The position numbers were made by a program, and so were the translations under genes. From NCBI RefSeq assembly GCF_000427665.1, contig NZ_KE386572.1:4092373-4156372 (forward strand): 64,000 nt of DNA, written 5' to 3'. Shown here piece after piece: positions 7,926 to 46,116 of the stretch; the first letter of the stretch is position 1; each line of letters opens with the position of its first letter. The stretch comes from Geminicoccus roseus DSM 18922. GTDB lineage: Bacteria > Pseudomonadota > Alphaproteobacteria > Geminicoccales > Geminicoccaceae. The notes beneath the pieces were generated by a model, which was not told the DNA's origin, made no database searches, and worked only from the letters and a program-made list of their open reading frames with translations.

Positions 7926-9637
7926 CCAAGAAGCTGCGCTCGCACGCCTGGTTCGGCGGGCTGGACAAGGACGGCTTCATCCACCGCAGCTGGATGAAGA
8001 ACCAGGGTCACCCGGACGAGATGTTCGACGGCCGCCCGGTGATCGGCATCTGCAACACCGCCTCCGACCTGACTCCGTGCAACACCCATTTCCGGGGCCT
8101 GGTCGAGCACGTGAAGCGCGGCGTCTACGAGGCCGGCGGCTTCCCGGTCGAGTTTCCGGTGTTCTCCTGCGGCGAATCCAACCTGCGCCCGACCGCGATG
8201 CTGTTCCGCAACCTCGCTTCCATGGATGTCGAGGAGGCGATCCGCGCCAATCCGATCGACGGGGTGGTGCTCCTGGCCGGCTGCGACAAGACCACGCCCG
8301 CGCTGCTGATGGGGGCCGCCAGCTGCGACCTGCCGACCATCCTGCTCTCCGGCGGGCCGATGCTGAACGGGCATCACCGCGGCCGCACGATCGGCTCAGG
8401 GACCGATGTCTGGAAGCTGTCCGAGGACGTGCGCGGCGGGGTGATCTCGCTGGCCGACTTCCTGGACGCCGAGAGCGCCATGTCGCGCTCGCCCGGACAC
8501 TGCATGACCATGGGCACCGCCTCGACCATGGCGACCATGGCCGAATCGCTGGGGGTGACGCTCACCGACAACGCCGCCTATCCGGCGGTGGACGCGCGCC
8601 GGGTCCGGCTGGCGCACCTGACCGGACGACGGGCGGTGCAGATGGTGGTGGACGACCTGCGCCTGTCCAAGGTGCTCACCCCCGCCGCCTTCGCCAACGC
8701 CATCCGGGTCAACGGCGCGGTCGGCGGCTCCACCAACGCGGTGGTGCATCTGCTCGCCATTGCCGGGCGGATCGGGGTCGATCTGACCCTGGAGGACTGG
8801 GACCGGCTCGGCCAGGACGTGCCCTGCCTGCTCGACCTGATGCCGTCCGGGCGCTTCCTGATGGAGGACTTCTGCTATGCGGGCGGGGTGCCGGCCCTGA
8901 TGACCCGGATCGCCGACCTGCTCGACCTGGACGCCCTGACCGTGACCGGCCGCACGCTCGGCGAGAACATCCAGGGCGCGCAGGTGTTCGACGAGGAGGT
9001 GATCCGCCCGCGCGACCGGCCGCTGGCGGCCCAGGGGGGCATGGCGGTGCTGCGCGGCAACCTTGCCCCGGGTGGCGCCATCATCAAGCCGTCGGCGGCG
9101 AGCCCGGCTTTGATGCAGCATCGCGGCCGGGCGGTCGTGTTCCAGGACATCGACGACTACAAGGCGCGGGTCGACGACCCGGACCTCGACATCGACGCGT
9201 CCTGCATCATGGTGCTGAAGAACTGCGGGCCCAAGGGCTACCCGGGCATGGCCGAGGTCGGCAACATGGCGCTGCCGGCCAAGCTCCTGCAGCAGGGCGT
9301 GCGCGACATGGTGCGGATCTCGGACGCCCGGATGAGCGGCACCGCCTACGGCACCGTCGTGCTGCACACCGCCCCGGAGGCCGCGGCCGGCGGACCGCTG
9401 GCGCTGGTGCGCGACGGCGACATGATCGAGCTCGACGTGGCCGGGCGCCGGCTGCACCTGGAGGTCGACCCGGCCGAGCTGGAACTCCGCCGCGCCGCCT
9501 GGACGCCGCCCGAGCCGGCGATGGGCTCCGGCTACCAGAAGCTTTATGTCGACCATGTCCTGCAGGCCGACCGGGGTGCCGACCTCGACTTCCTGGTCGG
9601 CTGCCGGGGTGCTGCGGTGCCGCGCGAGAGCCACTGA
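7922..9637 (+). CDS. IlvD/Edd family dehydratase, probably a sugar-acid dehydratase
   Basis: A 571-residue dihydroxy-acid/6-phosphogluconate dehydratase family enzyme of full length. Seen: cysteines expected to bind the iron-sulfur cluster in NTASDLTPCNTHF, LLAGCDKTTPA and MVLKNCGPKGYPGM, plus the RISDARMSGTAYG substrate block near the C-terminus. Known: the members nearest in wording (SGGPMLNG, SRSPGHCMTMGTASTM) dehydrate L-arabonate, D-xylonate or related aldonic acids to 2-keto-3-deoxy acids. The RraA-like lyase and FadR-type regulator in the same operon fit sugar-acid breakdown rather than branched-chain amino acid synthesis. Exact substrate open. Confidence 0.9.
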   Translation: MTKKLRSHAWFGGLDKDGFIHRSWMKNQGHPDEMFDGRPVIGICNTASDLTPCNTHFRGLVEHVKRGVYEAGGFPVEFPVFSCGESNLRPTAMLFRNLASMDVEEAIRANPIDGVVLLAGCDKTTPALLMGAASCDLPTILLSGGPMLNGHHRGRTIGSGTDVWKLSEDVRGGVISLADFLDAESAMSRSPGHCMTMGTASTMATMAESLGVTLTDNAAYPAVDARRVRLAHLTGRRAVQMVVDDLRLSKVLTPAAFANAIRVNGAVGGSTNAVVHLLAIAGRIGVDLTLEDWDRLGQDVPCLLDLMPSGRFLMEDFCYAGGVPALMTRIADLLDLDALTVTGRTLGENIQGAQVFDEEVIRPRDRPLAAQGGMAVLRGNLAPGGAIIKPSAASPALMQHRGRAVVFQDIDDYKARVDDPDLDIDASCIMVLKNCGPKGYPGMAEVGNMALPAKLLQQGVRDMVRISDARMSGTAYGTVVLHTAPEAAAGGPLALVRDGDMIELDVAGRRLHLEVDPAELELRRAAWTPPEPAMGSGYQKLYVDHVLQADRGADLDFLVGCRGAAVPRESH

Positions 9638-40668: not shown

Positions 40669-40891
40669 GGCGGTCGGGCAAGGTCGCGCCATTTCAATTA
40701 TTTGGCGACGACTTCTCCAGCTATTGTTCATTTCGTCTTGCTGGCGACTTGCGGGTTCACGTCGAATGTAACCACAGGTAGAAAAATCCTTTGTAATTAA
40801 AGTGCTGCCCAACTAACCTGCAGGTAGATTGGTATTCACGGGCAGTCGCTGTCTCCGCGCGGTATTCCGCCGGCACAGCGGGAGAATGGCC

Positions 40892-43048
40892 ATGTCTCTC
40901 CAGGCGACGGGCGGGGTGGAGCAGGGCGGCGTGGCCGCGGGCGCGCTGCAGCTGGAGGACGAGCGCAAGCCGCGTCCGGACAACAAGGCGGCCGAGCGCC
41001 GCCGCCGCGCCGACCCGGCAGCGCTTGGAATGCCGCTGGGGGCGGCGTTCGTCGGCCTGCTGATGGCCCAGGGCCACCAGGCCTTCGCGGCCGATGCCCG
41101 GGCCGGCCAGGGCGAGGCCGGCCAGGCCGGGCGGCTGGGCGATCGCGGCCTGGCGCCGGCGCGGGGCGAGGCGTCGTCCGGCGGCGCCGGCCAGGCGCCG
41201 GGCGCCCTGGCGGCCGGGGCTGCCGTGCCGGTGCTGGATCCTTCCGGCTCGATGCTGGCGGCGACGACCGGGATCCTGTCCGGCGGGCAGGGCTCGCCGG
41301 CGCTGGCCGGGTCGGCCGGCGGCGACGAGCTGCAGGCGCGCGACGACCTGTCGGGCCTCGGCGGGATCAGCACCTCCCTGACCGTGAGCCGGCCGGCTTC
41401 CACCGAGGTGCCGCCGGTCGAGATCGACGATTCCGACCGGGGCGGCGAGGGCCTGGGCCCGATCGGCAAGGTGGTCCGGGGCGGCAGCGGCGACGACACC
41501 ATCATCGGCACTGACCGCGACGACGTCATCAAGGGCGGCGACGGCGACGACTATATCGACGGGCGCGACGGCAATGACGACCTGGACGGCGAGGCCGGCG
41601 ACGACGTCGTGCTGGGCGGCCGGGGCAACGACATCATCCAGGGCGGCTCCGGCAACGACCTGGTCGACGGCCAGGACGGCGACGACATCGTGGATGGCGG
41701 CACCGGCGGCGACACGGCCCTTGGCGGCTCCGGCAACGACCTGGTCGGCGGCGGGGCCGGCGACGACGTGGTCGACGGCGGCACCGGCACCGACGTGGTG
41801 ACCGGCGACGGCGGCAATGACCGGATCTTCATCGGCAGCGTGCGCGACTTCGCCATCGAGAACCAGGAAGGCTTCGACAAGGGCGGCATCGACACCGTCG
41901 CGGTCCGCGACACCTATGCCACCAGCCTGCGTACCGAGCTGCCCCATCTCTCGCCCGACGGCTTGGCGACGTTCGTCCTGGGCGACCAGGTCGGCGTGCC
42001 GCTGCCGGCCGGCTTCAACCCGTTCGTCCAGCAGATCCACCCGGCGATCGAGAACATCGACCTTCTGGGCTCGATCGCCCAGGACGTGGTCGGCGGCAGC
42101 GGCGCCAACCGCATCCAGGGCAATGCCGGCGACAACATGCTGGCCGGGCGGGGCGGCGACGACTGGATCGACGGCGGCGACGGCCGCGACGTGGTCTGGG
42201 GCGGCACCGGCGCCGATCAGCTCTACGGCGGCGCCGGCGACGACCGCCTCTACGGCGAGGCCGGCGAGGACCGCCTCTACGGCGGTGCCGGGGACGACGT
42301 GCTGGATGGCGGGGCCGGGGCCGACCTGCTCTATGGCGGTGCCGGCTCGGACAGCTACGTGTTCGGCCTGTCCGAGGCGAAGCCCGACCGGATCTTCGAT
42401 TTCGACGGGCAGAACAGCATCAGCCTGCTCGACGCCGAGGCCGGCGACGTCCAGGCGATCGTGTCCGGCCCGGACCTGTTCATCCGGGTCGGCGGCCAGG
42501 ACGTCGCGATCATCGACCAGTACATGACCCACCAGTCGAACTGGACGGGCGTGCTCACCAAGAACGGCCTGAAGGGCATCTCGGAGCTGATCGGCGACGG
42601 CCAGGTGGTGACCGACCCGACCCTGCCGCAGCCCTCGCCGGACGTGATCGGCTCGGCCGGCAACGACATCCTGCGGGCCCCCTCCGATGCCGGCCACCAC
42701 CTGCGCGGCATGGCCGGCGACGACCAGCTGTTCGGCGGGGCCGGCGCCGACCGGCTGGACGGGGGCAAGGGCACCGACACGCTCCACGGCGGTGCCGGCA
42801 ACGACACCTATGTCCTGCGCCACGGCGATGGCGGCATCGACCGGATCGTCGACCACCAGGGCAAGTCGACCATCGAGATCCAGGGCATCGACTTCAAGGA
42901 CCTGGCGGCCTGGAAGGTCGGCGACGATCTGTGGCTGGCGGTCGACACCACCCCGCTCGGCATGGTGGAGGACTGGCAGTCCGGCCATGCCGACTGGTCG
43001 GTCAGGGTCGGCGACCGGACCGTGGCCGCCGACGACCTGTTCAGCTGA
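40892..43048 (+). CDS. RTX-type calcium-binding repeat protein, probably type I secreted
   Basis: A 718-residue protein from ATG 40892 (GGAG seven bases upstream). It has three clusters of the nonapeptide GGxGxDxLx at residues 197-310, 399-490 and 587-640 (for example GGSGDDTIIG, GGAGDDRLYG, GGAGNDTYVL). They would form calcium-filled parallel beta rolls. The N-terminus has no normal signal peptide: a basic stretch (AAERRRRADP) then a hydrophobic segment near 47-60, and a Gly/Ala-rich linker to residue 180. Known: RTX proteins leave by type I secretion using a C-terminal signal. No transporter genes are nearby. No catalytic domain is recognised, so adhesin or surface-layer roles are as likely as enzyme roles. 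It overlaps xylB tail-to-tail by 8 bases. Confidence 0.88.
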   Translation: MSLQATGGVEQGGVAAGALQLEDERKPRPDNKAAERRRRADPAALGMPLGAAFVGLLMAQGHQAFAADARAGQGEAGQAGRLGDRGLAPARGEASSGGAGQAPGALAAGAAVPVLDPSGSMLAATTGILSGGQGSPALAGSAGGDELQARDDLSGLGGISTSLTVSRPASTEVPPVEIDDSDRGGEGLGPIGKVVRGGSGDDTIIGTDRDDVIKGGDGDDYIDGRDGNDDLDGEAGDDVVLGGRGNDIIQGGSGNDLVDGQDGDDIVDGGTGGDTALGGSGNDLVGGGAGDDVVDGGTGTDVVTGDGGNDRIFIGSVRDFAIENQEGFDKGGIDTVAVRDTYATSLRTELPHLSPDGLATFVLGDQVGVPLPAGFNPFVQQIHPAIENIDLLGSIAQDVVGGSGANRIQGNAGDNMLAGRGGDDWIDGGDGRDVVWGGTGADQLYGGAGDDRLYGEAGEDRLYGGAGDDVLDGGAGADLLYGGAGSDSYVFGLSEAKPDRIFDFDGQNSISLLDAEAGDVQAIVSGPDLFIRVGGQDVAIIDQYMTHQSNWTGVLTKNGLKGISELIGDGQVVTDPTLPQPSPDVIGSAGNDILRAPSDAGHHLRGMAGDDQLFGGAGADRLDGGKGTDTLHGGAGNDTYVLRHGDGGIDRIVDHQGKSTIEIQGIDFKDLAAWKVGDDLWLAVDTTPLGMVEDWQSGHADWSVRVGDRTVAADDLFS

Positions 43049-44552: not shown

Positions 44553-44639
44553 CGCGGGTGCTCCTCCTGATCCGTCGGCCGCATCCGTGGCGCGGCCAGG
44601 CGCGGCGCGCAACCGCTTAAGGCAGGGACGTGCCCCCCG

Positions 44640-44658
44640 CCCGGCAATTCCTGCCGGG
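44640..44658. promoter_or_regulatory. ftr-like enhancer palindrome, copy 1
   Basis: CCCGGCAATTCCTGCCGGG: 7-bp inverted arms around a 5-base centre, 19 bases in all. It lies about 100 bases upstream of the sigma-54 promoter of flagellin. Known: Caulobacter FlbD binds G+C-rich ftr palindromes of this general form at this distance from sigma-54 flagellar promoters. Confidence 0.6.
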
Positions 44659-44671
44659 TAGATTGTGCCGG

Positions 44672-44690
44672 GTGGGCAGGAACTGCCGGG
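44672..44690. promoter_or_regulatory. ftr-like enhancer element, copy 2 (inverted)
   Basis: On the minus strand CCCGGCAGTTCCTGCCCAC, matching copy 1 at 16 of 19 positions. Its centre is 32 bases from that of copy 1, about three helical turns, so two activator dimers could sit on the same face of the DNA. Confidence 0.55.
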
Positions 44691-44754
44691 TGGCAGGGTT
44701 GGCTTGGCCGCTTTTGGCCGGGCTGGCGCCGGTCTCGGCCGGGCGGCGGGGCTC

Positions 44755-44770
44755 TGGCACGGCGTGTGCT
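44755..44770 (+). promoter_or_regulatory. Sigma-54 promoter of the flagellin gene
   Basis: TGGCACGGCGTGTGCT matches the -24/-12 consensus TGGCACG-N4-TTGCW at all fixed positions but one (G for the first T of TTGC). Spacing of GG and GC is correct. The transcript would start near 44782, giving a leader of about 105 bases before the flagellin ATG. Confidence 0.75.
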
Positions 44771-44886
44771 TGAAGGATCGGGGCCGGCCGGGGAGGGATC
44801 CTCGGTTTGGCGGGTCCGGCAGGTAGCCGGGCCTGGGCTCCCGGGAGGTCCGGGAGGCTCGCTTCAGGTAGAAGGAGTTTCGCTCG

Positions 44887-46062
44887 ATGGTCCTGACCGC
44901 CACCACCAATGTCTCGGCCAACACCGCGCTGCGCTATCTGTCGCAGAACTCGGCGGCCGCCTCCTCCTCGCTGGCCAAGCTGTCCAGCGGCTCGCGGATC
45001 GTGAAGGGCTCCGACGACGCCGCCTCGCTGGCGGTGGGCACAAGGCTGAAGGCCGACGTCACCGCGCTCAAGCAGGCCGCCTCCAACACCGCGCAGGGCC
45101 AGAGCCTCCTGCAGGTCGCCGACGGCGGCATGTCCAAGGTCGCCGACATCCTGCAGCGGATGAAGGCGCTCGCGGTGCAGTCGCAGTCCGGCTCGCTCAC
45201 CGACAACGAGCGGCAGTTCCTCAACCAGGAATACAGCCAGCTCAACACCCAGGTCGGCGACATCGCCAGCCAGACCAAGTTCAACGGCGCCCAGCTGCTC
45301 AACGGCTCGGCCGGCAAGACCCTGACCGTGTCGACCAGCGGCGCGTTCGCCAAGTTCGAGGGCGACGGCGACCTCAACGCCAACTTCCGCGGGGTGACCC
45401 TCAACCTCAACGGTGCCGCCACCGGCAATGTCAGCTTCGCCTATGTCGGCGCCGACAGCGCCACCGGCACCCATGCCACCGACGCCACGATCGGCACCTT
45501 CACGCTCACCTACGGCAACGTCACCGACACCATCCAGCTGGAGTTCGCCACCGACCAGCGGGTGGTCGAGGGCCAGCTGAACTTCCGCAACGCCGGGGTG
45601 TCGATCTCCCTGTCCAACTTCGACTTCTCCACCGAGCTGACCGCGGAGAGCTTCACCGTGGGCGGCGGCGGCGATCTGACCTTCCAGGTCGGTGCGCAGT
45701 CGGCCGACACGGTGGTGGTCAACATCGACGACATGACCACCACGGCGCTGGGCACCGCCGGCACCGACATCTCGACCTCGGCGGGGGCGGTCACCGCCGG
45801 CGACGCGATCGACCAGGCGATCGCCCAGGTCAACGGCTCCCGGGCCGAGCTTGGGGCGATGATGTCGCGCTTCGAGTTCTCCGCCGCCAACCTCGCCACC
45901 TCGATCGAGAACCTGGACGCCGCCCGCTCCACCCTGATGGACGTCGACATGGCCGCCGAGATGAGCCGGTTCACCTCGGCCAACATCCTCACCCAGGCCA
46001 GCGTCTCCATGCTCGCCCAGGCCAACCAGATGCCCCAGACCATGCTCCAGCTCCTGCGCTGA
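44887..46062 (+). CDS. fliC: Flagellin
   Basis: A 391-residue flagellin. Seen: conserved D0/D1 N-terminus (NTALRYLSQNSAAASSSLAK, LSSGSRIVKGSDDAASLAVG) and the C-terminal helix ending in MLAQANQMPQTMLQLLR, with a variable Thr/Gly-rich middle (residues 140-300). It is exported by the flagellar type III apparatus and forms the filament. AAGGAG lies nine bases before the ATG. Expression is predicted to be late and sigma-54 dependent from the upstream promoter and paired ftr-like sites. A strong hairpin ends the transcript, so it is a single-gene unit. No other flagellar genes are in the window. Confidence 0.95.
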   Translation: MVLTATTNVSANTALRYLSQNSAAASSSLAKLSSGSRIVKGSDDAASLAVGTRLKADVTALKQAASNTAQGQSLLQVADGGMSKVADILQRMKALAVQSQSGSLTDNERQFLNQEYSQLNTQVGDIASQTKFNGAQLLNGSAGKTLTVSTSGAFAKFEGDGDLNANFRGVTLNLNGAATGNVSFAYVGADSATGTHATDATIGTFTLTYGNVTDTIQLEFATDQRVVEGQLNFRNAGVSISLSNFDFSTELTAESFTVGGGGDLTFQVGAQSADTVVVNIDDMTTTALGTAGTDISTSAGAVTAGDAIDQAIAQVNGSRAELGAMMSRFEFSAANLATSIENLDAARSTLMDVDMAAEMSRFTSANILTQASVSMLAQANQMPQTMLQLLR

Positions 46063-46074
46063 GCCAAAGCGCCG

Positions 46075-46116
46075 GCCCCGCCCCCGCCGCCCCTGGCTAA
46101 GCGGCGGGGGCGGGGC
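46075..46116 (+). terminator. Terminator hairpin after flagellin
   Basis: Perfect 16-bp stem GCCCCGCCCCCGCCGC / GCGGCGGGGGCGGGGC with a 10-base loop, 12 bases after the flagellin stop. No T-run follows. Confidence 0.75.

Follow-up and report, generated by a model that had tools for sequence, protein, structure and literature searches.

The window (the whole 64-kb stretch of DNA that was analysed) contains an intact flagellin gene preceded by a leader, a sigma-54 promoter element and, further upstream, two related near-palindromic sites (Table 1). An FGGY-type sugar kinase gene lies divergently upstream, and the genes immediately downstream do not seem to be flagellar, so that we regard this gene as an orphan flagellin. 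By its sequence, the region looks like a compact transcription unit of the late flagellar class. Elsewhere in the window, 40829–43048 encodes a large protein built of repeats, which by eye are of the haemolysin-type calcium-binding kind (GGxGxD).

Table 1. Features of the flagellin region (window coordinates) and related features elsewhere in the genome (C5 and L190 coordinates)
Feature	Position	Strand	Remarks
Distal enhancer site (FlbD/ftr-like, predicted) CCCGGCAATTCCTGCCGGG	44640–44658	+	Centre 44649, ~ −132
Proximal enhancer site (predicted) CCCGGCAGTTCCTGCCCAC	44672–44690	−	Centre 44681, ~ −100
Middle core, candidate third site CCGGGTAGATTGTGCCGGG	44654–44672 (core 44657–44669)	+	One core mismatch; weak
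Sigma-54 −24/−12 element TGGCACGGCGTGTGCT	44755–44770	+	7/8 scored positions beyond the fixed GG and GC
Predicted leader, ~105 nt	44781–44886	+	Start inferred from the −12 GC; good ribosome site AGAAGGAG at 44870–44877
Flagellin gene	44887–46062	+	391 aa, intact; Pfam Flagellin_N and Flagellin_C
GC-rich inverted repeat 3′ of the stop codon, likely terminator	46076–46115	+	From sequence; without a T run
Duplicated cassette (enhancer pair, promoter, leader, flagellin, part of the terminator hairpin)	44632–46113	+	Second copy C5:198438–199921 (−)
Sites and sigma-54 element before flgI	C5:12787–12913		flgK just downstream of flgI
Sites and sigma-54 element before fliK-flgD	C5:2503166–2503345		Sites overlapping, at 14 bp
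Fourth strict pair in the genome, within a lytic transglycosylase gene (SLT domain)	C5:3970361–3970403 (L190:6362–6404)		Codons 32–45

The near-consensus promoter element reported in the preliminary description is borne out, with its GG and GC correctly spaced. Counted from the predicted start at 44781, the centres of the two enhancer sites fall at −132 and −100; they are 32 bp apart, as had been described. Both of the related 19-bp sites are present, but they are identical at 15 of 19 positions and not at the 16 claimed. The opposite orientation given to them agrees with the strands as read, yet carries little meaning because the sites are near-palindromes. They presumably resemble the ftr sequence of Caulobacter. 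The distal 19-mer occurs without a mismatch three times in the genome, namely at the window flagellin, at a second flagellin copy (C5:199895) and upstream of flgI (C5:12805).

The flagellin cassettes and the third flagellin

The second flagellin copy belongs to a duplicated cassette located far away on the same contig. The two copies are 99.46% identical across 1484 bp and encode identical proteins. All of the in-block differences fall at 44662–44712, either in the interval separating the enhancer sites or immediately past them, whilst the two copies agree fully in the sites, the promoter, the leader and the coding sequence; under uniform change the probability of such clustering is ~8 × 10^−8, a crude bound. 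This pattern would fit either gene conversion of the part comprising promoter and gene, or a recent duplication followed by local change.

A third flagellin (C5:21505) is 62% identical, and neither the enhancer sites nor a sigma-54 element were found upstream of it or of its apparent counterpart in a congener (G001). The flagellins are thus controlled in at least two ways. Upstream of the third gene (L091:350–505, equivalent to C5:21349–21504) there are TTAACCTTAACG-type boxes in the place of FlbD sites; as regards a CtrA reading, the TTAACC boxes there are without the TTAA-N7-TTAA spacing.

Sigma-54 machinery and further predicted targets

The preliminary description had proposed a search for flbD, fliX and rpoN, and all three were found in the source genome (5.7 Mb, 99% complete). 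There is a single copy of rpoN (PF04552, E = 6.2 × 10^−64), and FliX is encoded (PF10768, E = 1.9 × 10^−21, above cut-off). The search for sigma-54 activators gave three strong matches and no more. Curated models identify two of them as NtrC (651.6 bits against a cut-off of 558.6) and NtrX (677.7 bits against 600). The third, at C5:2494 kb, scores 673 bits with the NCBIfam FlbD model, below that model's cut-off of 750, the next family scoring 364. It has Sigma54_activat and HTH_8 (Fis-type HTH) domains with an intact GAFTGA motif, and its gene lies in a fliF-fliG-(fliH-like)-...-flbD-flhA cluster. FliA, searched for with a sigma-28 flagellin promoter in mind, gave no match above cut-off in the genome, and no FlbT was found by a search that did match in Caulobacter (positive control).

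A scan of other flagellar promoters, also proposed at the outset, showed that the sites together with a sigma-54 element recur upstream of the second flagellin, flgI and fliK-flgD, as well as at the window gene. The sigma-54 pattern alone gives no signal genome-wide: it matches 195 times, and its reversed control 174 times. At C5:518710–518760 (L037 ~8711–8761), the palindrome occurs in overlapping copies between dehydrogenase-type and DeoR-type reading frames; this position was rejected as a flagellar target, being without a nearby sigma-54 promoter and, as far as seen, not flagellar. The core at C5:4739749 and other single cores, mostly within long reading frames and without a partner, were set aside.

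The strict pair in the lytic transglycosylase gene has an unusual position. A sigma-54 element, TGGCCCGGCGATTGCA, lies just 5′ of the ATG, which places the site centres downstream at +100 and +130, and the congener has this gene too, with a sigma-54 element and with the pair in exactly these positions (L191:9128–9170). Four codons that are rare in the source genome occur in the sites: AGA accounts for 1.0% of its Arg codons, ACT for 1.9% of the Thr codons, GCA for 3.4% of the Ala codons and CGT for 3.7% of the Arg codons. All four are kept in the congener. We infer that FlbD may act at this pair. A Caulobacter flagellar promoter with a 3′ enhancer is already known, going by the title of a paper cited in PMC3096577, so the downstream enhancer is not a new kind. 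Together with the near-identical flagellin cassettes, the enhancer within the transglycosylase gene offers clean natural experiments.

Recurrence and spacing of the paired sites in relatives

A pattern search found core pairs 18–48 bp apart in 22 of 31 genomes of the same family, compared with none for the reversed control. The same pair lies upstream of flagellin genes in this family, and at the flagellin and flgI promoters the proximal centres are at −80 to −126. A sigma-54 element matching at least 6 of 8 positions follows the pair at all 11 flgI genes and at 10 of 14 flagellin genes; the 4 of 14 flagellin pairs without a good element count against the FlbD reading. Since the cores were defined as GGCA-N5-TGCC, only the positions outside them give independent support: in 54 sites, these show C/G at −7/+7 in 81%, R/Y at −2/+2 in 93% and a central A or T in 78%.

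Across the class, the core pair is present in 69 of 192 alphaproteobacterial genomes. FliX and the pair occur together in 60 genomes, the pair only in 9, FliX only in 46 and neither in 77, which gives an odds ratio of 11 (p = 7 × 10^−12) with shared ancestry ignored. On the same terms, the reversed pattern is weakly associated with FliX (odds ratio 2.9, p = 0.02, 192 genomes, shared ancestry ignored), an association that may come from differences in GC content or genome size. The paired-site rule can be used in searches, where it picks out flagellar promoters throughout the Alphaproteobacteria with little background.

Two further arrangements were observed amongst the relatives. In several (L168, L193, L154, L167), flgI and fliX are divergent genes with the pair between them, and there FlbD may control its own regulator FliX; fliX of the source genome is elsewhere. 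In another genome (G023, L204:1805–1837), a pair with centres at −108 and −88 and a perfect sigma-54 element, TGGCACGAGAATTGCT, apparently precedes a gene with a PilZ-like product (by eye), a possible further FlbD target.

The distances between paired sites in the family fall into two clusters, 18–23 bp (n = 19) and 30–32 bp (n = 16), with none at 24–29 bp and two above 40 bp. Two clusters separated by a gap are the expectation for helically phased binding on the same face of the DNA. The clusters divide by gene: the spacing is 30–32 bp, mostly ~31–32 bp, in 13 of 14 flagellin pairs and 19–23 bp in 11 of 11 flgI pairs (13:1 versus 0:11, Fisher p = 2.7 × 10^−6, the sites being non-independent). 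The flagellin sample includes the two duplicated copies of the source genome and two pairs from one relative. As a universal for the class the spacing rule was rejected, because flgI pairs at 30 bp and flagellin pairs at 21 bp occur outside the family.

Should the spacing difference be functional, it would provide a direct test of how enhancer geometry orders flagellar gene expression. We are doubtful of the larger proposal that in this family the spacing is a code, with three turns for flagellin and two for flgI setting FlbD thresholds and hence expression order, and that the pairs work equally well inside coding sequence, for instance in the transglycosylase gene, where they would constrain the codons. 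We found no report of the phased two-spacing rule, of the contrast between flagellin and flgI or of the conserved intragenic pair in a literature search that covers few of the original Caulobacter papers. The spacing rule and the intragenic pair are the notable parts of this analysis, although priority cannot be claimed for them.

Interpretation and comparison with known systems

The DNA itself shows the sites, how they are phased and conserved, the promoter, and the genes for FlbD, FliX and RpoN. We consider it highly probable that the window holds an enhancer pair and sigma-54 promoter of a late flagellar gene, activated by looping under the control of FlbD and FliX. The FlbD-type enhancer proposed in the preliminary description is thus supported, both by the regulators encoded in the genome and by the recurrence of motif and sigma-54 element at other flagellar operons. 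FlbD dimers bound to both palindromes would lie on the same side of the helix and so favour assembly of the active AAA+ ring, which a DNA loop would carry to sigma-54 RNA polymerase poised at 44755–44770. ATP hydrolysis would then open the promoter and allow flagellin to be transcribed. The timing would be set by FliX, gating FlbD so that activation occurs only when basal body and export apparatus have been completed; in Caulobacter, FliX couples FlbD activation to basal body completion (PMC3096577, PMC3930126, PMC7064773).

Chance occurrence of such palindromes in GC-rich DNA might account for single cores, of which 400 dinucleotide-preserving shuffles of the window give a mean of 3.5 where 4 are seen, but it is extremely unlikely to account for the arrangement. 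Of the 400 shuffled windows, 4 contained any core pair at 14–48 bp and not one combined such a pair with a suitably placed sigma-54 element, whilst the relaxed 19-mer has 4 matches in the window where 0.82 are expected. Moreover, the pair is kept across genera at fixed spacing, and its sites are identical in both gene copies though the stretch that separates them from the promoter has changed.

Another protein, either NtrC or a dimeric regulator that is not a bEBP, could in principle bind the palindromes and serve the sigma-54 element, as NtrC and NtrX are encoded and many dimeric regulators use palindromic sites. We judge this unlikely: the best match at the promoter to the NtrC consensus, GCACYNNNNTGGTGC, has 4 mismatches, so that no NtrC-type sites are seen there, and in many genera the motif accompanies flagellar genes (flagellin, flgI, fliK); it also tracks FliX. 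It is more unlikely still that FlbD binds here mainly to repress, with flagellin driven from elsewhere. FlbD of Caulobacter is indeed a dual regulator (PMC3930126), reported to repress the fliF promoter, but the sites here do not cover a promoter; a good sigma-54 element follows them 100–132 bp downstream, and their positions match those of activating enhancers.

Activation by FlbD places the locus among systems already described. The same layout recurs in related bacteria, so that we regard it as a well-supported member of the known FlbD system and not as a new kind. The statement that such control is known mainly from Caulobacter was too narrow; FlbD and FliX homologues are reported from dozens of polarly flagellated Alphaproteobacteria (PMC3096577). 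FlbD outside Caulobacter being established, its predicted sites here are largely expected.

The Caulobacter FlbD/FliX/ftr regulon shares with this genome RpoN, FlbD and FliX, an flbD gene clustered with fliF and fliG, and palindromes ~100 bp from the −24/−12 elements of flagellin, ring and hook genes. It differs in having FlbT, which acts in post-transcriptional flagellin control, and an IHF consensus at the promoter, both treated here as accessory features and not as defining FlbD control; between enhancer and promoter the best match here to WATCAANNNNTTR has 3 mismatches, in a spacer of 78% GC. Particular to the present system are a fixed site pair at two or three helix turns and one flagellin of three without the element.

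At glnAp2, the same 32-bp distance separates the NtrC sites, whose centres are near −140 and −108. Like the enhancer described here, that of glnAp2 consists of a pair of activator sites that share a face of the helix and precede a sigma-54 promoter (for the tandem layout, see PMC4740811), whereas the recognition sequence and the activator differ, FlbD being controlled by FliX and not by a kinase (PMC7064773).

Rhodospirillum centenum and Azospirillum are further Alphaproteobacteria outside Caulobacter in which flbD has a flagellar role and lies within fli-flh clusters (PMC2890560, PMC3169532) comparable to the cluster found here; there are mutant data for R. centenum (PMC2890560) and, as cited in PMC3169532, for A. 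brasilense. The accounts consulted deal with gene content and phenotype rather than binding sites. The present analysis extends the description of the FlbD enhancer at the cis level well beyond Caulobacter.
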